Of a DNA stretch of 64,000 bases, positions 7,543 through 18,565 are shown piece by piece; position 1 is the stretch's first letter; every line of letters starts with the position of its first letter. The notes under the pieces were generated by a model. It was given only the letters and a program-made list of their open reading frames with translations. It was not told the DNA's origin and did no database searches. The translations under genes and the position numbers were made by a program. This DNA is from a virus, in IMG/VR virus record IMGVR_UViG_3300036770_008442, positions 1 to 64,000 of that record; one strand, 5' to 3'.

Positions 7543-9066
7543 TCAAAGATTAACCCTGAAGATTTTATATCTGAAATTCTCATTCCGATAGATCTGGATC
7601 CTTGCCTCACTGTGCTTCATGAGGTAATTATTGTACTTGGGTGTACTGAAATCGTCCACAAAATCTATGACATTGACCTTATCCTTGCCCTCCATTTTTC
7701 TCATCCCCCGTCCTAAACTCTGCTTGATCAGAACCTCACTTTTATAGGATTCCACTAAGAAAATATTATGTAGATTGTTGATTGAAATCCCGGTGGAGAA
7801 AGTGCCGTAGGTCGCAATAAGAACCTTGTTTTCCCCCGATGACATCCGGGTCTTGTACTCTTCTCTCAGAGATTCGTCTGTGTCCCCATCCACATAGAAG
7901 ACCTCTCGATCCGAACTGAGATCCCTGAGTCTATTCCAGATCTGTTTTCCATATTCGTCCTTTACAGATTGAAAAAGAACCAAAGAATTTTTAGAGGTCT
8001 TTGAAATAAAATCCACTACGTATTTAAGCCTCTTTTCGCTTTCTATGACCAGTTTTCTCTCGATATTATAAATATCATTGCCCTCCATATTGACGGCATT
8101 CAGTTTCAGATCTGCCAGTTTAGCTTTGATCTCTGGATCAAGCCAGTTCATGATGACAACTTTGATCTCGACCGGAGTAGCATGATTGTTTTTAAACAGG
8201 AATTCGGGAGAAATCTCCACCACCAATGGGCCCAAAAATTGTTGGATCGTCAAATAGTCCGCAGATCCTCTTTTGGTCAGGGTTCCGGTTAGACCAAATC
8301 TCCACCCGCAATGCATACAATGAGCAACTATTTTTTTGATGGACATTGAATTAGTGTGGTGAGCTTCATCGACAAAAACCGCATCCACCTCCTCAAAGAA
8401 ATCGGGGTCTTTCTTAACCAAAGACTGGAATGTTCCTATAATTAGATCACACCCCTCTCTCAATTTGCTGCCTCCTCCTATCTGCTGGATTTTAACCCCC
8501 AAGTCTTCAATCCCATAATCAATAAAGTCATCATTTCCTTGAAAGACCAAATTTGTATTTGGAACTATCATAAGAAATTTTCGGATCAGCCCCTGTTGCT
8601 TTAAATAGGCAAAGATCATAAAAGAAATGAGGGTTTTGCCGGATGATGTGGCAATTTCAGAAATGGAATATCGATATTTTATGATCTTCCAAGCTGCCTC
8701 TATTTGATAATCCCGGGGCTTGACATCCTTTCCCTCGAAAAATTGGTCAACCCATGCATTAAAGCTCTCGAGAGTAAGATCAGTGAGAATAAGATCCTCA
8801 ATTCCTTCGATCTCGATCTCCATCTTGTACTCTTTTCCGATCTCTAAAACCTCCCTCCATAGACCGATCGGAATTTTCCAAAATGCTCCTTTTTTTTCAA
8901 TGAAACAGATGCTTCCATCCCAGATTTTTTTCTTAACCAACGGATGGAAATACCAATTATGGATCTTTTTGGTCAGAGAAATATCTATCTGTCTTTTTTC
9001 AACCTCATCTGAGGCACTAGCCAGAATAATCCATTTTCTATCCTCAGAGATGTTGAATTTAAGCAT
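7543..9066 (-). CDS. uvsW: UvsW-like ATP-dependent helicase
   Basis: This 507-residue superfamily-2 helicase is close in length to T4 UvsW (about 500). Visible motifs are RDYQIEAA (118-125), the Walker A ATSSGKT (139-145), VDEAHH (232-237), GLTGT (258-262) and the C-terminal QSLGRGMRK arginine-finger motif. The N-terminal about 110 residues fit the small UvsW substrate-binding domain. UvsW unwinds R-loops and branched DNA and helps switch T4 from origin-dependent to recombination-dependent replication. It lies directly downstream of a UvsY-like gene, as in T4. Confidence 0.88.
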   Translation of the reverse strand: MLKFNISEDRKWIILASASDEVEKRQIDISLTKKIHNWYFHPLVKKKIWDGSICFIEKKGAFWKIPIGLWREVLEIGKEYKMEIEIEGIEDLILTDLTLESFNAWVDQFFEGKDVKPRDYQIEAAWKIIKYRYSISEIATSSGKTLISFMIFAYLKQQGLIRKFLMIVPNTNLVFQGNDDFIDYGIEDLGVKIQQIGGGSKLREGCDLIIGTFQSLVKKDPDFFEEVDAVFVDEAHHTNSMSIKKIVAHCMHCGWRFGLTGTLTKRGSADYLTIQQFLGPLVVEISPEFLFKNNHATPVEIKVVIMNWLDPEIKAKLADLKLNAVNMEGNDIYNIERKLVIESEKRLKYVVDFISKTSKNSLVLFQSVKDEYGKQIWNRLRDLSSDREVFYVDGDTDESLREEYKTRMSSGENKVLIATYGTFSTGISINNLHNIFLVESYKSEVLIKQSLGRGMRKMEGKDKVNVIDFVDDFSTPKYNNYLMKHSEARIQIYRNENFRYKIFRVNL

Positions 9067-9754: not shown

Positions 9755-10816
9755 TTATCCTTCCAGGAAATAAACAAGATCCAAAATATCAGAAGTGAAG
9801 TATTGATCGAATCTTTTGACCTTTATCCCGTTTTTTCTCAAGTGATTGACCATATCGTTTAGATCCCACTTCTTATTTATCGGAAGATCGTGCTCGATCA
9901 AGAATTTTTTCCAATTGAAGACCGCAAATCCATTTGATAGCATTTCGGCATTTTTGATTCTGCCTGCTTTGTCCCAGTCATACCAATATTGCACATTATC
10001 TATTTCAAAGGGAAATTTGTTCTCAACCGAGCACAAAGCAACAGAATTCTTCCAGAGCCAAGAATCCATAGGTCCCTCAAAAATGGTGATTGTTCGGTCA
10101 AATGTTATTTTGCCAATATTAAATACACTAGAAACAGGATCTATCTTTCTAGCCTCCTCTAAAAAATCATCATCCTTAATCCGATACAATTTATCCCAAA
10201 TTCCGCTGAGCTTGTATGTGTAATATTTTGCTCCTCCCGAGTATTTCATATTTCTGAACTGAAGTCCTAAAATCTGATCTTCCCGGGTCAAATTAAGCAA
10301 ATAAAGCCTCTGATTCTTTTCATCCCAGGCAAATTTCTCATCAGGAATTTGATTTCTGTTAATCAAATATCTTTCTATTTTAGATCCGTGTACCTCTTTT
10401 AAGTCTAGATTCTGCATAAAATCTTGTCGGGGAATAACTACTTTCTCAAAATCGGTATCAAAAAAGAAAGAGATGTCAACATCCCCGTAAACTTTCCTTC
10501 TTTTATCCTTTCCGTCTCTAACAATAGAAAGAATATCATTTTTTTCTTCCTGATTGATTTTTAAATCCAGAGAAAAATCTTTGAGCAAAGTAAAGGCATC
10601 CTTAAAAATACCACATCCACCATTATAGCATTTATAAGTTAGGGTATCCAAATAAAAGTTCCCCCTTTTCTTCCTGTAATTTGTGCTGTCTCCACAATAG
10701 GGACAAGAAAAATTCAGTCTGTTTCCAGCTCTGTAAATTTTCTGCTTATTGATGTCACCCGGAAAAGATTTACCGAGAGCTTGTCCCAGAAGATCCTCTA
10801 TTCTTGATATTTCCAT
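9755..10816 (-). CDS. DNA primase, T4 gp61-like
   Basis: The 353-residue protein is close to T4 gp61 in length (342). The N-terminus carries a zinc-binding site, CPYCGDS at 38-44 with KCYNGGCG at 62-69, as in bacterial and phage primases. A Toprim-like acidic segment (FEGPMDSWLW) follows in the second half. It would make RNA primers for lagging-strand synthesis with a gp41-type helicase that is not in this window. It follows gp32 and its terminator in the transcription direction. Confidence 0.8.
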   Translation of the reverse strand: MEISRIEDLLGQALGKSFPGDINKQKIYRAGNRLNFSCPYCGDSTNYRKKRGNFYLDTLTYKCYNGGCGIFKDAFTLLKDFSLDLKINQEEKNDILSIVRDGKDKRRKVYGDVDISFFFDTDFEKVVIPRQDFMQNLDLKEVHGSKIERYLINRNQIPDEKFAWDEKNQRLYLLNLTREDQILGLQFRNMKYSGGAKYYTYKLSGIWDKLYRIKDDDFLEEARKIDPVSSVFNIGKITFDRTITIFEGPMDSWLWKNSVALCSVENKFPFEIDNVQYWYDWDKAGRIKNAEMLSNGFAVFNWKKFLIEHDLPINKKWDLNDMVNHLRKNGIKVKRFDQYFTSDILDLVYFLEG

Positions 10817-10876: not shown

Positions 10877-11896
10877 TTAGAGATCTGCGTACAGATCATC
10901 TAAGGAAGATGCAGTCTCAGGGGCAGAAGGCTGCTTGAAAGGAACATCGTCATCGTCAGATTTCTTCGAACTTTTAGATCCAATCTTGGTATCTCCGGAT
11001 TCATCAAAAATCTGAGAACTTGTACTTGTGGAAGAAGAGGAAGATGATCCAGAGCTTTTGGTTGAAGATCCGGAGTATTCTGATTTGTTAGAAGAATACT
11101 GGGAAGAATTAACTCCTGACAAAATCTCATTAACCATCCTTCCGTCGGGAACTGTATTTTTAATGATGTTCATAACCCGATCAGTCAGATTATCGTCCCA
11201 TTCTTTATATTCAAAGCTCTTGAGGTTATCTGGACCAGTTTTGAGGAATTCCATAATGGTTTCCATGTCCTCTTTTGTTTTCTTCATTTTGCGCCCTTCT
11301 ATTTCAATAGGACTATTATTTCCAACAAATTGACAGAGGTCATAATTGTTCCATTCCCCAACCTTTCTGGAATGAATAGAAAAGAGCTTTCCTTCAAAGA
11401 GATCAAAGGGATTACAGGGATCTCCATATTCAGGCTTTAACTGGGACTCAAGCATATCATTGATCTTTCTTCCAAACTTAAAGATCATGATTTTACCCTC
11501 GAGATCTGGATTGTTCTTATCCTGAACAATTTGAATCAGTGCATAATAATCTTCTTTTCTGGAGAAAGATTTAGCAAGTTCCTGATCTGCCGCAGAATTA
11601 GAATTCTTAAGCTTCCAGAAAATATCCTTTAGAATAGATTTTTTCCCCATCGTTGAAGGGCAGTCGACCGAAAATCCTTCTCCCGAAGAAGGGTCATTCA
11701 AATAAACATAATACTTATGGATCTTTGATTTAGCAGGATCCACATAGTTAGGAACGAACCTAACCAAAGCCTTATAAACTCCATCCTTCCCATTTTCCGG
11801 ATAAGGCTTGTAAAAATCAGAATCTCTCGAATCCTCTTTTTTGGGCTTCGTTACGAAATTCTCAACATCCAAGTTAAACACATCTAAATTACTCAT
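10877..11896 (-). CDS. Single-stranded DNA-binding protein, T4 gp32-like
   Basis: The 339-residue protein has the gp32 plan: a basic N-terminus, a core DNA-binding domain, a long Ser/Thr linker (about residues 265-300) and an acidic C-terminus ending SLDDLYADL, the usual partner-binding tail. The zinc site of T4 gp32 is not clearly kept; only one Cys and one His are seen in the expected area. It coats single-stranded DNA and recruits replication and recombination proteins. A strong terminator follows. Confidence 0.82.
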   Translation of the reverse strand: MSNLDVFNLDVENFVTKPKKEDSRDSDFYKPYPENGKDGVYKALVRFVPNYVDPAKSKIHKYYVYLNDPSSGEGFSVDCPSTMGKKSILKDIFWKLKNSNSAADQELAKSFSRKEDYYALIQIVQDKNNPDLEGKIMIFKFGRKINDMLESQLKPEYGDPCNPFDLFEGKLFSIHSRKVGEWNNYDLCQFVGNNSPIEIEGRKMKKTKEDMETIMEFLKTGPDNLKSFEYKEWDDNLTDRVMNIIKNTVPDGRMVNEILSGVNSSQYSSNKSEYSGSSTKSSGSSSSSSTSTSSQIFDESGDTKIGSKSSKKSDDDDVPFKQPSAPETASSLDDLYADL

Positions 11897-11968: not shown

Positions 11969-12718
11969 CTATCTTGAATTTTTCGTCCAATTTAGCTCAT
12001 TTTGTTCCAGGTCTCCAATTCTTTTGTCTCTTAAATACACATCAAGATCTACTCTTTCCACATCGAACTCCGATGTGAATAAATGATATTTCAATAGGGT
12101 CTCGGGATGGAAAAGTATTTTCTTATCGACTATATATGTCTCTATTTTTGAATATAGTGAACAGTAGTAAGACATGGCATCCCTTCCTCCCATGGCAAAA
12201 ATGTCATTAATCCCAGATCTCCAGTCATATCCTTTGGGAATTCTAATGACCATTGGATCCAGATTGAATTCAGGAGACTCCTTAAAAAGTAAATCAAATC
12301 TGGATTTAATAATCCTATCATATCTTATTCCGGTTTCCCTCTCATAATCAGTCAGAAGGGAAAGGGCAGATCCTATTTTATACCACATACAGAATACAGA
12401 GCTAAAACTGATCTCCCCATTCTTGATGGAAAAATCCCCCAGTGAATTTGCCCGGTTGATAATATTTTTTATTTTGGGAGAATTAAAATCCTCCGAAAGA
12501 ATTGATTTTGGTTCGTAGATTGAAATGACATCAGAGATGCTCAGGGTATCCTGAATATCCCGGGTCTGTAATTGAACTGTATCAAAAATAGTTTCAGTGG
12601 GATTCCAACAAGAAATAAAAACATCAGGATGATAAACATCAAGAATATTTTGCTTGAATTGAGGAAAATAATCAGAAGCGTTTCTGAATTGTCCCGAAAT
12701 TAATAGAGCAGTTCTCAT
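11969..12718 (-). CDS. Glycosyltransferase-like protein of capsule-cluster type (249 aa)
   Basis: ATG 12718 is chosen because it overlaps the stop of the GDPD-like gene in ATGA. The protein starts with a strand and loop (TALLISGQFRNASDYF). It has FISCW, an RIIKSRFDLLF segment that carries the Arg-x-Asp-type acidic site of many glycosyltransferases, and IPKGYDWRSGINDIFAMG, typical of hypothetical proteins in capsule and LPS loci. It is the last gene of the sugar module. The likely job is transfer of an activated sugar; donor and acceptor are unknown. Confidence 0.5.
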   Translation of the reverse strand: MRTALLISGQFRNASDYFPQFKQNILDVYHPDVFISCWNPTETIFDTVQLQTRDIQDTLSISDVISIYEPKSILSEDFNSPKIKNIINRANSLGDFSIKNGEISFSSVFCMWYKIGSALSLLTDYERETGIRYDRIIKSRFDLLFKESPEFNLDPMVIRIPKGYDWRSGINDIFAMGGRDAMSYYCSLYSKIETYIVDKKILFHPETLLKYHLFTSEFDVERVDLDVYLRDKRIGDLEQNELNWTKNSR

Positions 12719-13176
12719 AGATATCGGCGGGAATAATCCGTACAAATTGCATAGCACACAGAAACATCATCATTATGTATCTCTGGTAAAACTGCTACAC
12801 TGCCCACGATGGGCTGATTTCCTGGATATGCCCAGATAAAACCAAGAGAGGTCAAGGTAACAGAATCAGACTGGTGCCAAAAATAATTGTATCTACATTT
12901 CCAATGGAAATCACTCTTATCAGAAGCTGATTGGAAAAAACAGAGAGCTTCAAAATTCTTACAATGAATCCAAGTGTTTTTGCATCTATCGGAAAACCAA
13001 GACAGAGAGACTGGGAAATCTGGTTTATCGTGGCCCAAGAAAATTCCGTTTTCTAAGACCCAAACATCGACTTCGACATCAAATCCCCCAGCAAGAGCTG
13101 CATCTATATAATCTGGGTGATTTTCAAGAGATAGATTGGGTCCTTCTAAATTTCCTCGATGTGCAATAATAATCAT
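12715..13176 (-). CDS. Short GDPD-like phosphodiesterase (153 aa)
   Basis: The N-terminus shows the glycerophosphodiester phosphodiesterase signature: IAHRG, then LEN, EVDVW (Glu and Asp metal ligands), LGHD and WIHCKN (the later Lys). The family normally has about 230-250 residues, so this is a compact version. Short GDPD-like proteins occur in capsule loci, where they act on phospho-linked sugar or polyol intermediates. It starts 4 nt after the RuBisCO-like stop and overlaps the glycosyltransferase-like gene by 4 nt. Confidence 0.65.
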   Translation of the reverse strand: MIIIAHRGNLEGPNLSLENHPDYIDAALAGGFDVEVDVWVLENGIFLGHDKPDFPVSLSWFSDRCKNTWIHCKNFEALCFFQSASDKSDFHWKCRYNYFWHQSDSVTLTSLGFIWAYPGNQPIVGSVAVLPEIHNDDVSVCYAICTDYSRRYL

Positions 13177-13180
13177 TCCC

Positions 13181-14416
13181 TTAGAAAATACGATAAGCTA
13201 GATCTTTTGAAAATTTTCGGTCTCCCCATTTTTCAATGGCTGCTTTGTATTCAGGCTTTTCAAATTCCCCATTGATGGCCTGAATCATAGCAATTCCACC
13301 GGATCTTGTTCCCATGGGATGTCCATGCATAGCACCCCCGACGTTAGCCATCCAGTCTGTAGAGTCTATAACCTGATTAATAAACTGAACTAATCCGGGG
13401 TGCATGCCGCAACTAAGAGCAGGAACTATATCAAAAGACCATAAAACCTTTAAGGCATCAATTAATTCTTGGTCTTCCTGGTTCATATAGCCACCTATCA
13501 TTCCTGCATGAATAGAGTCGCAGCCAGACCATCCCGCTATTTTACAGATAACGGGCCAATAGATGTGAAATGGAGCTCTGCGATCAGTAAAGAATTTATC
13601 ACCGCTTTTTTGAAAATGAATCCACAGATCCGGATTTTCTTTTCTAATAGCTCGATAAACACCCAGTCCACTCCATACATTGATGTGAATCCCGTTGCCC
13701 CCGTTTTCTTGAACGAATCGAGCTCTCTCCAAAGCATATGGACTGTCTCCATTGATACAAAAACAATAGATCACATTCGGTGCATGGGAATTAAGCCAGT
13801 TGCTAATGAGAGGAACTCTTACCTCGAGTGGGCAGTGAGCAGGATTGCCCAAAAGCTCGTCTTCCTTGATGAAATTAACCCCTCCTGCCACCATTTCTTT
13901 AACAGCTTCAAGGAGCACATCCGGACTCATCCCAACCTTGGGCTTCACAATTCCACCTAAAAAGGGTTTATCATAAACTCCATTGAAGGATCTAAATCCC
14001 CGGATTCCATAGGCACTCTTTAAGGTAAAAGATCTTTCTACATCAGGGGGAAGTTCAATATCCAAGACGTGACATTTCTGAATTTCCAAAATGTCAACTT
14101 GACCTCCAGCTACATGACAAAGAATTTGGGAGATCCCATCCTCCTCGAGATTCAAATTGCTTAGAGGAAATGCTATCCGAACCTCCCCACTTTTTATTCT
14201 AGCGAGGCCCTCCTCTTCTTCTAGCACTATACATCCGTGATTGAGAAACATTTCTTCAGTTTCCCAAAAGCTTCGGTTATTCGGATTGCCTATGCTCTGG
14301 CCAATTGCTAGATTCCAAGCAGCCTCTCTGAGCGAATTTTTGGCTTCGAGATAATATGTTACCGTGAAATAATCGGATAGATCCAGATCGGATTCATTCC
14401 GAAATATACTAACCAT
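13181..14416 (-). CDS. RuBisCO-like protein (form IV-type), 411 aa
   Basis: The fold signatures of the RuBisCO large subunit are all in order: GQSIGNP in the N-terminal domain, GGIVKPKVG (154-162, equivalents of Lys175 and Lys177), FIKEDE (182-187, with the carbamylated Lys201 and Asp203/Glu204 equivalents at 184, 186 and 187), SIHAG (301-305, His327), SCGMHPG (335-341) and GGAMHGHPMG (360-369). The loop-6 lysine (Lys334), needed for CO2 fixation, is replaced: HAGMIGGY ends in Tyr310. His294 and Arg295 also appear changed, to Gln and Lys. It is therefore a RuBisCO-like protein, expected to do enolase, isomerase, aldolase or decarboxylase chemistry on a sugar or polyol phosphate. Known relatives act in methionine salvage and D-apionate breakdown. 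Here it sits between a cupin and a GDPD-like gene in a glycan module. Confidence 0.9.
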   Translation of the reverse strand: MVSIFRNESDLDLSDYFTVTYYLEAKNSLREAAWNLAIGQSIGNPNNRSFWETEEMFLNHGCIVLEEEEGLARIKSGEVRIAFPLSNLNLEEDGISQILCHVAGGQVDILEIQKCHVLDIELPPDVERSFTLKSAYGIRGFRSFNGVYDKPFLGGIVKPKVGMSPDVLLEAVKEMVAGGVNFIKEDELLGNPAHCPLEVRVPLISNWLNSHAPNVIYCFCINGDSPYALERARFVQENGGNGIHINVWSGLGVYRAIRKENPDLWIHFQKSGDKFFTDRRAPFHIYWPVICKIAGWSGCDSIHAGMIGGYMNQEDQELIDALKVLWSFDIVPALSCGMHPGLVQFINQVIDSTDWMANVGGAMHGHPMGTRSGGIAMIQAINGEFEKPEYKAAIEKWGDRKFSKDLAYRIF

Positions 14417-14427
14417 TTTTTATTAAA

Positions 14428-14748
14428 TTAAATTGCGTATTTATCCCCGGGTTTAGATGGTGTCTTAACGATCAGAACTTCACAGTTTTCAATAAAAATC
14501 GGATCTGCAACTTCATATTTTTTAATGACAAATATATCACCTTTTACCAATTCTTTTCCTTGTATGATCATTCTTCCCCTGATCAATAAATTGATCTCGT
14601 CGCTTTCCCGATGGTAATGTACTGGCCATTTTTCTCCGGCTATATGGGTCTTAAAGCAGACTTCAAAATCACCGGTCTGATAGGCAGAAGGATCGAAATT
14701 TCCGATAAACCATCCTCCTTTATAGCTCTCGATTCTTGTAACTTCCAT
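14428..14748 (-). CDS. Cupin-fold protein (106 aa)
   Basis: A single cupin domain: WPVHYHRESDEINLLIRG gives the HxH...E metal motif (His44, His46, Glu51), followed by GDIFVIKKY as the second motif, in which the usual His is missing. Small cupins next to sugar enzymes are often isomerases or epimerases. Its stop lies 11 nt before the RuBisCO-like ATG, so the two are co-transcribed and may act on successive intermediates, which is inference. Confidence 0.7.
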   Translation of the reverse strand: MEVTRIESYKGGWFIGNFDPSAYQTGDFEVCFKTHIAGEKWPVHYHRESDEINLLIRGRMIIQGKELVKGDIFVIKKYEVADPIFIENCEVLIVKTPSKPGDKYAI

Positions 14749-14778: not shown

Positions 14779-15270
14779 TTATTTACCGATCGGAATTATT
14801 AGACTGGCTGAGACTTCTCCTGTGCTCGGGACATAACTCGCCGCTAAATTACCTAATGATACCCCAAATGCTCCGGGTTCATAAGATACCCCGACATCTG
14901 TATTAGGTATATAATATGTGAAACCTCCCGCTACCATACCTTCACCTGACTCATCATCCCGATACTGGTAAAAAAAAGGTTCAAAACCTTTATCTATTAA
15001 TCCCTGCGATAATCGGGAAACAAAATCCGGTTTAGCCGGGTCTAAATTTAGACCGACAATTTTTTTAGCCAATTCTGTATTTTGTCGGATCTGATCCAAG
15101 AGGGATTTGTTATTTTTAATTATTGAGGGAGTAAGTTTCGGTATTTTTAAGATTGAAGCTGAAACCGGTTTGGTTTTTTTACCCTTATCTAAAATATCCC
15201 TGCTGGATTTTTCTTGTAAAATTTTTGAAAGTTGTTTCATCCTACTGTTTTTTAATTCACCGTCACTCAA
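14779..15270 (-). CDS. Unknown protein (163 aa) in the sugar module
   Basis: No family is recognised. The N-terminal half is basic and helical; the C-terminal half has Gly-rich beta segments (GMVAGGFTYYIP, GAFGVSLGNLAASYVP). It lies between the 310-residue unknown protein and the cupin. The beta-rich C-terminus could be structural rather than enzymatic. Confidence 0.5.
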   Translation of the reverse strand: MSDGELKNSRMKQLSKILQEKSSRDILDKGKKTKPVSASILKIPKLTPSIIKNNKSLLDQIRQNTELAKKIVGLNLDPAKPDFVSRLSQGLIDKGFEPFFYQYRDDESGEGMVAGGFTYYIPNTDVGVSYEPGAFGVSLGNLAASYVPSTGEVSASLIIPIGK

Positions 15271-15292: not shown

Positions 15293-16225
15293 TTAGTGAC
15301 TAAATGTATGTGAAGTTTTTTTAATGTTGGGCATATTATTAAATACAAACTCTCTTGGAAATAATCCTCCCCCGAATGGTGCGTTTGGATTGGGAACTCC
15401 GTTGTACAGATCATTAAATAAATAGTTACAAGCGTCGTCACTTAAATTGCCGTATGATCCAATCGACCATCCTGTTCCTATACTATAGTTTGTAATGTAC
15501 CATACCCCGTGATCTTTTTTTCCTCCGAAGATTCCAATATCCTGATACCATTGCCAGTATTGCCAATATGCCGGGTTTTCTATATACCATCCACTTGCAT
15601 TGGAAATAAAGGAATTTTCGTTACACTCAGAAATCCTATCATCACATTGATTACTTGGATACCATGCTGTAATTTCAAAATTAGGTAAAAGAGTATTCCA
15701 TACTTGTTGATCAAGACCAAAAACCGCTTGAAGCATAATGTCAGTATAACCTGTATCAGTTTTGGCGGGTACATCTACCGTTGATAAATCAGATAGTTTT
15801 CCCGAAACTGTGTAAGTTCCGAATGCGGTATTGACTTGTCCTTCATAAACTGTATCCCAATATGTGGTTGGATCATCATAGAATGTTTGTAAATCAAACT
15901 GAAATTGATTGGAGGTATTTTGGAATCTTTCTATAAGACGGCTTGTCGCACTTAAAAGACTCGGTGGTGTATTGGTTGAATATCTTGAAACAACCCCACA
16001 ACAAAAATTGGCGGCGATTTGAGTAACCCCGTCGGATGCTGCCCAAAATGATCCGTCTAAAATATTGATTCCGATTTGGACTCCTAAATCTTTATTGTCT
16101 TGGATGGATAAAAGAGCAAATGCGTTTTCTATTTTGAGATTACCATTCACAAGAATGTCAGAATTTAAGTCCATAAGGTTTCTTAAATTTAATTTTACTT
16201 TGTCGATTTGATCTTGTGGAATCAT
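15293..16225 (-). CDS. Unknown Trp/Tyr-rich protein (310 aa) in the sugar module
   Basis: No family is recognised. The second half is rich in Trp, Tyr and Asn (PAYWQYWQWYQDIGIFGG), a composition seen in carbohydrate-binding and fibre proteins. Several Cys residues occur (CDDRISECNENS). Its ATG overlaps the nucleotidyltransferase stop by 4 nt, so it is tightly coupled to the sugar module. It could be the carrier or acceptor of the sugar, or a structural protein; neither is shown. Confidence 0.55.
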   Translation of the reverse strand: MIPQDQIDKVKLNLRNLMDLNSDILVNGNLKIENAFALLSIQDNKDLGVQIGINILDGSFWAASDGVTQIAANFCCGVVSRYSTNTPPSLLSATSRLIERFQNTSNQFQFDLQTFYDDPTTYWDTVYEGQVNTAFGTYTVSGKLSDLSTVDVPAKTDTGYTDIMLQAVFGLDQQVWNTLLPNFEITAWYPSNQCDDRISECNENSFISNASGWYIENPAYWQYWQWYQDIGIFGGKKDHGVWYITNYSIGTGWSIGSYGNLSDDACNYLFNDLYNGVPNPNAPFGGGLFPREFVFNNMPNIKKTSHTFSH

Positions 16226-16971
16226 AGTATGGTATTTTTTTGAATTATCGATTGATATCTTTTGAGGTCTTCTGGAATTCCAATCGGAAAATGCATATTA
16301 AAGAAATAGGGTAATATTTTTTTTCCCTCTTGAATCAAGTAGTTATAGGTTGGAGCAACATAAAATTCCCCATTGCAACGATCGTTGCATTGAATCATTT
16401 GTTCGGCAGATCTAACAAAATCAGAGCCGGATTTCCAATAATGGAGACCGTTGGTTGCTAAATTAGAGATAACCTTTTTCTCCGCTGTCTGAACGACCTC
16501 TCCATCCCGATTGAGTTTGATGTAACTGTTTTTGGGTGACTCCGAGACAAAGCATCCCAAAGCTCCATCGCAATCATGAATCTGTACAAAATCCGAGAAA
16601 AATTGGAAATCAAAGTCCCGAATAATCTGATCACAATTCACAACCAAAAGAGGATTCTGAGAATCGATCTCTTGTTTTGCGAGAAGACATGTCGAAGCCG
16701 GGCCCTCTGTTAAAATAGGTGTGGTTATAATTTGAAACTCAATCCCAGTTTTAGAAACATGCTTAATAAAGTCCAATGGAGGTAGGATCCCCTCCCGAAC
16801 GACAAATAAAAAACGAGAATTTGGGATCTTTAAATTCTTAATAACCGATGTGATCATCGATTCCCCGTCCACGTTAATGAAAGGTTTGGGATCTAAATAT
16901 CCCGCATCAGAGAATCTCTTTCCCAATCCCGCCAAGGGAATTAGTACATTAATTTTTTGGTTCGATCTCAT
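16222..16971 (-). CDS. Sugar-phosphate nucleotidyltransferase-like protein (249 aa)
   Basis: The N-terminus carries the NTP-transferase signature LIPLAGLGKRF with the catalytic lysine in PKPFINVDG. VVNCDQII gives the metal-binding Asp and AEKKVISNLATNGLHYW the later sugar-pocket segment. Such enzymes join a sugar or polyol phosphate to a nucleotide, making the activated donor for a glycosyltransferase. The version ending NCDQ is common in capsule loci. It overlaps the RuvC-like gene by 23 nt at its start and the 310-residue gene by 4 nt at its end. Confidence 0.75.
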   Translation of the reverse strand: MRSNQKINVLIPLAGLGKRFSDAGYLDPKPFINVDGESMITSVIKNLKIPNSRFLFVVREGILPPLDFIKHVSKTGIEFQIITTPILTEGPASTCLLAKQEIDSQNPLLVVNCDQIIRDFDFQFFSDFVQIHDCDGALGCFVSESPKNSYIKLNRDGEVVQTAEKKVISNLATNGLHYWKSGSDFVRSAEQMIQCNDRCNGEFYVAPTYNYLIQEGKKILPYFFNMHFPIGIPEDLKRYQSIIQKNTIL

Positions 16972-17620
16972 GACCTAAAAACAAACAGATCCAGGTTGCG
17001 TCAATAATATCATCAATCGGTTTATTGATATTTCTCTTAGGGGTAATCCAAGAATCCTGGTGATCCTTGAGTGCATTAGTGAATGTGTGAAGATTAGTTT
17101 CGGGTAATTGCATTTCCATTATCCTATGATAAAGCTCATCTTTCTTAGCGTTACCTTTGAGAGCAAATTTTTTAACAGAGGTTGGGGAAAACACATAGAA
17201 TCTTTCTGGTCCTGAAAAATCCATAATTTTTTTCCGGAGTAAAGCGGTGGCCATGGAGATATCAATCAGGGCATTGCCATTGGAAGCAAAACTAAGACCC
17301 TCGATAGCTACATAAACTTCATCTCCAGGCAAACAATGTTTTTCAATAGAGGACCAGAAATGATCTACAAGCTCCATAAAATAAACGATCTTAATTCTTT
17401 CTTTCTCTGAATACTCCTCGGGAATACTCTTTTTTTCCAGGAAAGACAAGAAAAATTCCTTCATACCATCGAGAACGAAAAAGGGTTTATCCTTGGATTT
17501 TTTGAGAGAATTTTCATTTCGATCTGACCGGGTGAGAGATCCCCAAATAAAATTATTCTCTCTTCTGATACAAAAAGCAGGGGAATTGAGGGAAAAATCG
17601 ATCCCAATTAAAACTTTCAC
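16949..17620 (-). CDS. RuvC-like Holliday-junction resolvase (223 aa)
   Basis: GTG 17620 starts the frame. The RNase-H-fold acidic set is visible: GIDFSLNSPAF (Asp8), YVAIEGLSFAS (Glu107) and PIDDIIDATW (Asp204/Asp207). Lys-rich KKFALKGNAKKDEL gives the conserved basic stretch of RuvC-like nucleases. It would cut branched DNA for packaging, a job done in T4 by gp49 endonuclease VII. A GATATATA element and a terminator of the upstream gene lie just above the start. Confidence 0.75.
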   Translation of the reverse strand: MKVLIGIDFSLNSPAFCIRRENNFIWGSLTRSDRNENSLKKSKDKPFFVLDGMKEFFLSFLEKKSIPEEYSEKERIKIVYFMELVDHFWSSIEKHCLPGDEVYVAIEGLSFASNGNALIDISMATALLRKKIMDFSGPERFYVFSPTSVKKFALKGNAKKDELYHRIMEMQLPETNLHTFTNALKDHQDSWITPKRNINKPIDDIIDATWICLFLGHEIEPKN

Positions 17621-17998: not shown

Positions 17999-18006
17999 TA
18001 TATATC
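17999..18006 (-). promoter_or_regulatory. GATATATA promoter-like element
   Basis: GATATATA followed by AAAAG lies 18 nt upstream of ATG 17981 and overlaps the stop codon of the tail-tube-like gene. Confidence 0.5.
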
Positions 18007-18565
18007 ATTTCTGTTTTCTGATTTCTAGATCTATGTCAAGATAGTTACATCTGAATCCAACGCTAAAGGTGTAAACACTGGGTGCATTTTGTGTGTAATT
18101 GAGAGATAAATTTGAAACGGAGGTCAGGGTAACCTCTTTAAAAATTACGCTGGTCACTACATTACCTTCGTTATCCAAAATTCTCAAAGGAAGATTCGGA
18201 AGAAACACTTGGGGATTTTTAAAATTAAGCTTATCCAAAATAGTCTCCAGAACAATAAAATAATTTATAAATCCCTCTGACATTCTAAATACGACCTCAA
18301 AATCCTTACTAAAAAGATCTTGAACTGGTGTTGCACTTTGATAATTAATCTTTTTGCCAAGATTCCGGGTCTGCTCCACTAGGTCAATAGACATGGTAGG
18401 AAATCCAATCGACTGGATTGAGCTATTGATATATGAAGTGATAGTATCGTATGGAGTGGGCTGTTTTTTTACATAGTCGATGTATTTCTCCTGAATTTTT
18501 TCAGGAAAAAATCCCTTCGGAAAAACAAAATAAAAACTATTGGCTCTGGCATTAAGCATACTCAT
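18005..18565 (-). CDS. Tail-tube-like protein (186 aa)
   Basis: The layout fits gp19/gp54-like tail-tube proteins: an N-terminal segment NSFYFVFPKG, a central DFEVVFRMSEGFINYF and a C-terminal beta segment (VYTFSVGFRCNYLDI). Size is near T4 gp19 (163). It may form the tube or a tube-related ring. It lies 17 nt after a large virion gene. The call is by pattern only. Confidence 0.45.
   Translation of the reverse strand: MSMLNARANSFYFVFPKGFFPEKIQEKYIDYVKKQPTPYDTITSYINSSIQSIGFPTMSIDLVEQTRNLGKKINYQSATPVQDLFSKDFEVVFRMSEGFINYFIVLETILDKLNFKNPQVFLPNLPLRILDNEGNVVTSVIFKEVTLTSVSNLSLNYTQNAPSVYTFSVGFRCNYLDIDLEIRKQK

Follow-up and report, generated by a model that had tools for sequence, protein, structure and literature searches.

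A phage-borne RuBisCO-like protein with tyrosine at the Lys334 position in a conserved nucleotidyltransferase-cupin gene cassette

The RLP gene and its phage neighbourhood

The DNA analysed here (the window; 64,000 nucleotides) makes up the first half of a virus record of 128,254 bases (IMG/VR IMGVR_UViG_3300036770_008442). It carries a gene for a RuBisCO-like protein (RLP) within a run of minus-strand genes, with primase and gp32-like genes on one side and genes for a RuvC-like resolvase and a tail tube on the other (Table 1). The RLP gene is thus phage-borne. Its open reading frame (ORF), as given in the sequence-only reading, is real and lies on the minus strand, the plus-strand frame over the same positions being interrupted by many stops, and its product matches PF00016 (Pfam; 106.5 bits, cut-off 30.1, E 2e-30).

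Table 1. Coordinates of the RLP gene, its active-site codons and the neighbouring genes in the window
Feature	Length (aa)	Position	Strand	Basis
Helicase, after primase		7543-9066		UvsW-like in our reading
Phage DNA primase		9755-10816	-	phrog_47, E 9.9e-23
gp32-like single-strand DNA-binding protein		10877-11896	-	PF08804, 48.4 bits, cut-off 26.8
Putative glycosyltransferase-like protein	262	11969-12757	-	DUF7796 below cut-off; phrog_13607; name is our reading
Short GDPD-like protein	153	12715-13176	-	HRG, EN, ExD and GHD motifs; phrog_34507
RLP	411	13181-14416	-	ORF from ATG to stop; PF00016
RLP codon Tyr310		13487-13489	-	
RLP codon His303		13508-13510	-	
RLP codon Lys270		13607-13609	-	
RLP codon Gln269		13610-13612	-	
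RLP codon Lys184		13865-13867	-	
RLP codon Lys160		13937-13939	-	
RLP codon Lys158		13943-13945	-	
Small metal-type cupin	106	14428-14748	-	phrog_24762; HxHx4E
Orphan ORF in cassette	163	14779-15270	-	no Pfam or PHROG match
Orphan ORF in cassette	310	15293-16225	-	no Pfam or PHROG match
Nucleotidyltransferase, sugar-1-phosphate type	249	16222-16971	-	PF00483; phrog_3980
RuvC-like resolvase		16949-17620	-	phrog_159, E 5.8e-14
Tail-tube-like protein		18005-18565	-	phrog_45, E 1.4e-7

Two orphan ORFs separate the nucleotidyltransferase gene from the cupin gene in the window; neither has a counterpart in the 17 loci compared, and the longer one has no match in phage records. PADLOC returned no match for six cassette proteins, and neither promoter-like matches (22 against 31.9 by chance) nor terminator-like matches (10 against 7.9) are in excess over chance. 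Elsewhere, the record encodes a PfkB-family kinase (L096:8315-9301, minus strand, at about 92.3-93.3 kb of the record), HldE-like by eye, two glycosyltransferases, a sulfotransferase and an asparagine-synthase-like protein. A long protein with GSSG repeats (L098; 432 aa, frame open) lies at the end of the record.

The RLP evolves under constraint, that is, purifying selection: of 529 RLP pairs that share 75-98.5% of their amino acids, 48 have a dS below 2, and in these pairs, which are non-independent, dN/dS ranges from 0.040 to 0.111, with a median of 0.071.

Fold and active site of the RLP

The AlphaFold model of the RLP has a mean pLDDT of 90.0 and a pTM of 0.88, with the loop that holds Tyr310 less certain than the rest (block means of 78 and 74), and overlays RuBisCO-superfamily structures over almost the full length (Foldseek; VIA). 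The top match is the RuBisCO of P. horikoshii (2cwx; VIA Z 42.4, rmsd 2.3 over 381 residues), followed by MtnW of B. subtilis (2zvi; Z 41.8, rmsd 3.2 over 371 residues) and RLP2 of R. palustris (2qyg; Z 41.3, rmsd 2.6 over 385 residues); matches within 1 Z count as tied, so that the fold by itself names no RLP subfamily.

The active-site residues listed in the sequence-only reading, namely Lys158 and Lys160 (KPK), Lys184, Asp186, Glu187, His303, Tyr310 and Gln269-Lys270, are all present in the protein. Spinach numbers, which we take from general knowledge, were put onto the RLP by motif. Of the ‘lysines for carbamylation' seen there, Lys184 (Lys201) is the one that is carbamylated, and Lys158 and Lys160 occupy the Lys175 and Lys177 positions instead. 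The position of Tyr310 is borne out by a 127-row alignment, in which the corresponding column holds Lys in all six form I, all five form II and all 14 DPANN rows; likewise, these three groups have His-Arg where the RLP has Gln269-Lys270 for His294-Arg295. The references are a chosen subset (form I and form II rows from L115 and 30 loci, 14 of 30 DPANN rows, L118 unused), we ourselves assigned the labels form I, form II and DPANN form III from score bands, annotation and source, and the rows left out are L001 (the window again) and L035, L076 and L090 (cut). A degenerate HAGMxGGY pattern with at most one mismatch has a single match in the window (13487-13510, minus strand) and none in 100 shuffles.

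All these residues are shared by the viral rows of the alignment, that of the window among them (79/79), and by the uncut cellular rows (8/8). In a second set, the best 80 of 243 viral loci, Lys158, Lys160, Lys184, Asp186, Glu187, Gln269 and Lys270 are invariant (80/80), as are Gly39 and Gly105 in the columns of Glu60 and Asn123, so that both positions are changed in the clade, with the caveat that these two columns are less certain than the barrel motifs; Gly in the Asn123 column occurs also in both OiaX rows and hence is not unique to the clade. Tyr310 is found in 79 of the 80 loci, the remaining one being cut off there, and is better kept than His303, which is His in 71, Gln in eight and cut off in one. 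The eight loci with Gln at this position, the equivalent of His327 (L398, L409-L411, L413, L414, L420 and L423), retain the GGY with Tyr310.

The loss of Lys334, which the sequence-only reading took as separating an RLP from RuBisCO, does not mark RLPs in general, because 17 of 24 other RLP rows retain Lys in this column: 13 of 15 in the 127-row alignment, the other two having Ser (MtnW-like), and four of nine further rows, the other five, a divergent group, having Arg. The second Lys of KPK, equivalent to Lys177, is retained in none of these 24 rows. Judged from the alignments, the peculiarity of the clade is the combination of Tyr at the Lys334 position with an intact KPK. In RuBisCO, the residues of the carbamate-Mg site serve enolisation and those lost here serve CO2 addition, and replacements of this kind at the active site would bar carboxylation; the kept metal site is consistent with the earlier suggestion that the RLP retains the enolisation half of the chemistry.

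Phylogenetic position

In two trees, of 68 and 63 rows, each with 20 of the 79 viral sequences (less than 72% identical to one another), the viral representatives and eight cellular sequences form a clade of their own, with support of 100/99.9 and 100/100, respectively. The viral rows are not monophyletic, four cellular sequences lying among them in both trees. The form I, form II and DPANN enzymes are separated from this clade by branches with support of 100/98 (68 rows) and 99/97 (63 rows), and realignment restores no Lys334, so the assignment to RLPs rather than to RuBisCO, on which the sequence-only reading had staked its case, withstands both the tree and the alignment. OiaX and the kinase-linked RLPs make up a separate clade (100/100 in both trees), and MtnW falls together with five divergent proteobacterial RLPs (100/98, 63 rows). 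The sister of the viral clade differs between the two trees, which were sampled without certain DeepYkr or IV-Photo sequences: it is MtnW in the 68-row tree (89/82) but OiaX with the kinase-linked RLPs in the 63-row tree (88/42).

Among the NCBIfam models, form III RuBisCO gives the highest score, 142 bits against a cut-off of 497.45, and the cut-offs for MtnW (TIGR03332; 84.5 bits against 513.6) and OiaX (NF042437; 109.1 bits against 700) are not reached either. The RuBisCO fold, the homology and the active-site replacements place the protein in form IV in the broad sense. Two of the divergent proteobacterial RLPs with Arg in the Lys334 column (L431 and L450) are encoded beside what appear, in our reading, to be parts of a transketolase.

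Distribution of the clade

Relatives of the RLP are encoded in 88 of 90 pattern-matched viral stretches of IMG/VR and in at least 243 of 300 viral stretches retrieved with a profile query; pattern scans require short exact motifs and thus give lower bounds, and relatives were confirmed by tblastn only. The best 80 of each were examined, mostly on the same contigs (16 rows of the second set are absent from the first), and near-copies are common, with 67 of 81 RLPs distinct in the first set and 66 of 80 in the second. Among 50,697 phage records, no match was found at E 1e-5, in a search that may omit records very near the genome of the window; the neighbouring helicase, as a control, matches 3,276 records of the same collection. 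In GTDB (84,980 genomes), nine relatives were found among 208 pattern stretches, all on contigs titled MAG, and in the phylum of one of these (L083) a single genome of 398 sampled, the one already known, has a relative (E up to 1e-40). Thus, in the collections searched, and with scans that depend on short exact motifs, the clade is mostly viral.

The cassette and its partner genes

The genes next to the RLP recur across the viral loci. Within 6 kb of the RLP gene in the best 80 of 243 loci, the nucleotidyltransferase is found in 77, the cupin in 73 and the GDPD-like gene in 62, counts that are depressed by loci cut at contig ends, and in only one locus does the RLP lack all three partners. The cupin gene is immediately upstream of the RLP gene in 66 loci, always on the same strand (66/66), with a median gap of -4 bases, and the order nucleotidyltransferase-cupin-RLP is contiguous in 64 loci; downstream of the RLP, the GDPD-like gene is the next in 36 loci and the second in 12. 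When the neighbourhoods are viewed from the partners instead, taking the best 80 among the matches listed, which lean towards the query, the cupin is accompanied by the RLP in 62 and by the nucleotidyltransferase in 79, and the GDPD-like gene by the RLP in 10 and by the nucleotidyltransferase in 68. We read these numbers as a nucleotidyltransferase-GDPD core to which the cupin and then the RLP were added. On the nine cellular contigs, a nucleotidyltransferase of the cassette family is near the RLP in six (L082-L085, L087 and L089), the three without it all being short; four of the six also have a cupin or a short GDPD-like gene (both in L082, L084 and L085, a GDPD in L087). In L088, a GDPD gene overlaps the long frame of the RLP, and both this GDPD and that of L087 score above the PF03009 cut-off. 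In one locus (L081:2017-3480), the cupin beside the RLP is joined to a longer C-terminal part, for a total of 487 aa.

The nucleotidyltransferase matches PF00483 with 29.9 bits (cut-off 21.2), and its model (pLDDT 94.3) overlays 4evw (VIA Z 29.1, rmsd 2.0 over 229) and the UDP-glucose pyrophosphorylase 2pa4 (Z 26.4, rmsd 2.3 over 233). Profile and model point to RmlA, mannose-1-phosphate guanylyltransferase, GalU and GlmU types, so that, by predicted fold and family match, the partner would be a nucleotidyltransferase of the sugar-1-phosphate type. The HxHx4E motif of the cupin is invariant in 25 of 25 aligned sequences; the PDB matches of its profile are a mixture of quercetin dioxygenase, small cupins and KdgF and therefore do not tell its reaction. 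The GDPD-like protein alone has no Pfam match, but its family profile matches the GDPD 7e0v (E 1.3e-4), and HRG, EN, ExD and GH are present in 25 of 25 aligned sequences, with the D after GH variable.

In a tree of nucleotidyltransferases labelled by neighbours, those encoded with an RLP form no single group, and rows with and without it are partly mixed, with 13 label changes against a shuffled mean of 21.2 (none of 500 shuffles as low). The labels are noisy because loci are cut, and the row of the window itself is labelled ‘cup', its RLP gene being more than three genes off. Without a single RLP group, no claim is made that the RLP fixes the substrate of the nucleotidyltransferase; given the partial mixing, what the RLP provides may be either a common substrate or the input to a side branch.

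The RLP gene has been exchanged within a fixed locus. In L061 and L064, which are probably one lineage, the RLP is only 52% and 51% identical to that of the window, compared with 75-81% in nine other syntenic loci, whereas the phage locus is unchanged and its other genes share 42-85% identity with their counterparts in the window, within the span seen for the remaining syntenic loci. Their gp32, primase, cupin and nucleotidyltransferase are 56-75% identical, the cupin and the nucleotidyltransferase being no more distant than elsewhere, and the GDPD-like protein is slightly more distant (43% against 46-56%). The reverse is seen in L002, where an RLP 80% identical to that of the window resides in a different genome context. 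Such exchange suggests that both RLP subfamilies do the same job and appear interchangeable.

Proposed role and alternatives

The reading that we favour, at a little better than even chances, is that the RLP is a phage-borne, non-carboxylating, Mg-dependent enolising isomerase or epimerase of sugar phosphates that feeds the formation of a nucleotide sugar. With carbamylated Lys184, Asp186 and Glu187 as its ligands, Mg2+ would activate a phosphorylated keto-sugar, which would be enolised and then re-protonated, with Lys158 and Lys160 taking part, so that an isomer or epimer results; this step would be directly preceded or followed by that of the metal cupin. The nucleotidyltransferase would then convert the resulting sugar phosphate to an NDP-sugar, from which transferases would add the sugar to a glycan, either on the virion or on the cell under infection. 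Tyr310 and Gln269-Lys270 would replace residues that handle CO2 and phosphate and might help to set the substrate, as the earlier reading had suggested for the tyrosine. The roles of the cupin and the GDPD-like protein in this scheme are guesses. An isomerase or epimerase comes first, and a decarboxylase next, on account of the published RLP-cupin pair and the constant partner of the nucleotide-sugar type.

Taken further, the clade, largely carried by viruses, might catalyse a reaction new to RuBisCO and RLPs, one that would belong to a nucleotide-sugar pathway not yet described, a possibility that we put at somewhat less than even. In one concrete form of this idea, the RLP and the cupin would replace the usual sugar-phosphate isomerase and yield a rare sugar that marks particles or remodels the host surface; this form is drawn from the virus record, which has the PfkB kinase and in which no SIS_2 isomerase match was found.

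The alternative that survives best, although we consider it unlikely, is that the RLP, similar to OiaX, decarboxylates a 3-oxo sugar acid or its phosphate and would give the cassette a chain-shortened or branched sugar precursor. The OiaX model does match the RLP at E 2.3e-31, the best PDB match in a phmmer search is a Burkholderia RLP (3nwr), and on a Marivivens plasmid an RLP labelled OiaX, 30.0% identical to that of the window, is followed by a gene annotated as a glycosyltransferase. OiaX and the kinase-linked RLPs also share the RuBisCO fold, Lys175 and the carbamyl-Lys/Asp/Glu site, at identities of about 25-30% among the plasmid hits listed. However, the score falls far short of the OiaX cut-off, the two OiaX rows have Lys334 and His-Arg and lack Lys177, the reverse of the viral clade, and they belong to the separate clade described above. 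The gene neighbourhoods differ as well: a four-carbon acid sugar kinase follows the related RLPs, which we take to be those known as the IV-NonPhoto type, but is absent among the window neighbours scanned. On the Marivivens plasmid (L109), it is the annotated glycosyltransferase gene, and not a sugar kinase gene, that comes directly after the annotated OiaX gene.

The RLP and the cupin could also make up a shunt for methylthioadenosine salvage like that of Rhodopseudomonas palustris, by which the phage would aid sulfur recycling in the host, but this is improbable. In the available part of the report on the R. palustris system, the DeepYkr RLP, encoded in the same pairing with a cupin (RPA2169/RPA2170) in an MTA-isoprenoid shunt, is a 1,3-isomerase that turns 5-methylthioribulose-1-phosphate into 1-methylthioxylulose-5-phosphate, after which the pair removes the thiomethyl group, the cupin acting as methylsulfurylase (PMC5893883). 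The likeness is one of gene pairing (66 of 80 loci). In 27 of 82 loci, the gene directly after the RLP belongs to methyltransferase cluster 6 or 12 (assigned from one scanned member each, Methyltransf_24 and Methyltransf_21), which would also suit such a pathway. Yet the usual partner in the viral loci is a nucleotidyltransferase of the sugar type, and that part of the report names neither a nucleotidyltransferase nor a GDPD as a partner of the DeepYkr pair (PMC5893883). A PF01008 (MtnA family) match was found neither in the phage record (0/1), a fragment in which absence is unproven, nor were methionine salvage genes found by Pfam among the window neighbours scanned; the control search for PF01008 gave matches in nine genomes. 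MtnW itself (YkrW-type; 2,3-diketo-5-methylthiopentyl-1-phosphate enolase) resembles the viral RLP in being a non-carboxylating protein of the RuBisCO fold that has lost Lys334, but differs, in the one named row, in having Ser at Lys334, Pro at Arg295, Leu at His327 and no Lys177, as well as in its clade and in the mtnX gene that follows it.

That the RLP is a working RuBisCO for CO2 fixation by the phage is very hard to maintain, and this reading is rejected on the residues and the tree. It would fit with published accounts, as far as their available parts go, of viral rbcL as a carbon-fixation gene in the Great Salt Lake (PMC8506154), of landfill viral rbcL that clusters with RbcL-like proteins, with the function present also in sampled IMG/VR viruses (PMC12607003), and of viral rbcL from contaminated soil that, expressed together with rbcS, gave carboxylase activity in lysate (PMC12615777); these genes are set beside the clade by description, not by sequence. 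The form III enzyme of P. horikoshii (2cwx/2d69) combines the top fold match and the highest NCBIfam score with KPK and His327, and the RLP likewise retains KPK and the metal site. Unlike that enzyme, however, the RLP is changed at the positions of Glu60, Asn123, His294, Arg295 and Lys334 and falls outside forms I-III, and no match to the phosphoribulokinase (PRK) family was found in the record. A bacterial origin of the RLP gene, with the viral contig mis-assembled or mis-called, to which the MAG contigs with relatives and the likeness of many IMG/VR loci to glycan clusters might point, is equally hard to credit and is rejected, because phage genes flank the cassette on both sides in the window and, in 17 of 82 loci, window included, the RLP is found together with gp32 and primase genes of the same clusters.

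Implications and related phage gene sets

For members of a clade that lacks the CO2-handling residues and resides in a cassette of the nucleotide-sugar type, an annotation as carbon-fixation genes would be wrong, and a simple sequence test for membership is available: GGY after HxGM or QxGM, plus QKSGD. For the evolution of RuBisCO, the clade is an unusual natural variant in which KPK and the carbamate metal site are intact and Lys334 is gone. The cassette consists of only four or five short genes, so that the reaction is directly testable. In one open-access library (with bioRxiv and subscription papers outside the scope), no description of the clade, its Tyr or the cassette was found; the new groups that contain 65 RuBisCO homologues according to the available part of the GOS paper may include it (PMC1821046).

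The closest gene sets in known phages are the glycan islands of Kyanoviridae (Synechococcus phages SynMITS9220M01 and Bellamy), in which a nucleotidyltransferase, a cupin and a GDPD-like gene lie within a few kilobases, beside genes annotated as epimerase and glycosyltransferase, but without an RLP. A cupin like that of the window was sought beside L155, where none was found. A second cassette, which lies beside some of the RLP cassettes in viral contigs (L034:5287-5916 and neighbours; also L026, L028-L031) and occurs in Synechococcus phage S-SKS1, encodes RibB (DHBP synthase; PF00926, E 1e-73), a transaldolase-like protein (TAL_FSA below cut-off), an HAD-like protein and a nucleotidyltransferase of its own. 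This RibB-transaldolase module was considered as a lead to the substrate of the RLP and dropped, having its own nucleotidyltransferase and occurring without an RLP in S-SKS1, where the nucleotidyltransferase match and RibB are found in one 475-aa ORF annotated as RibB (L094 4001-7539).
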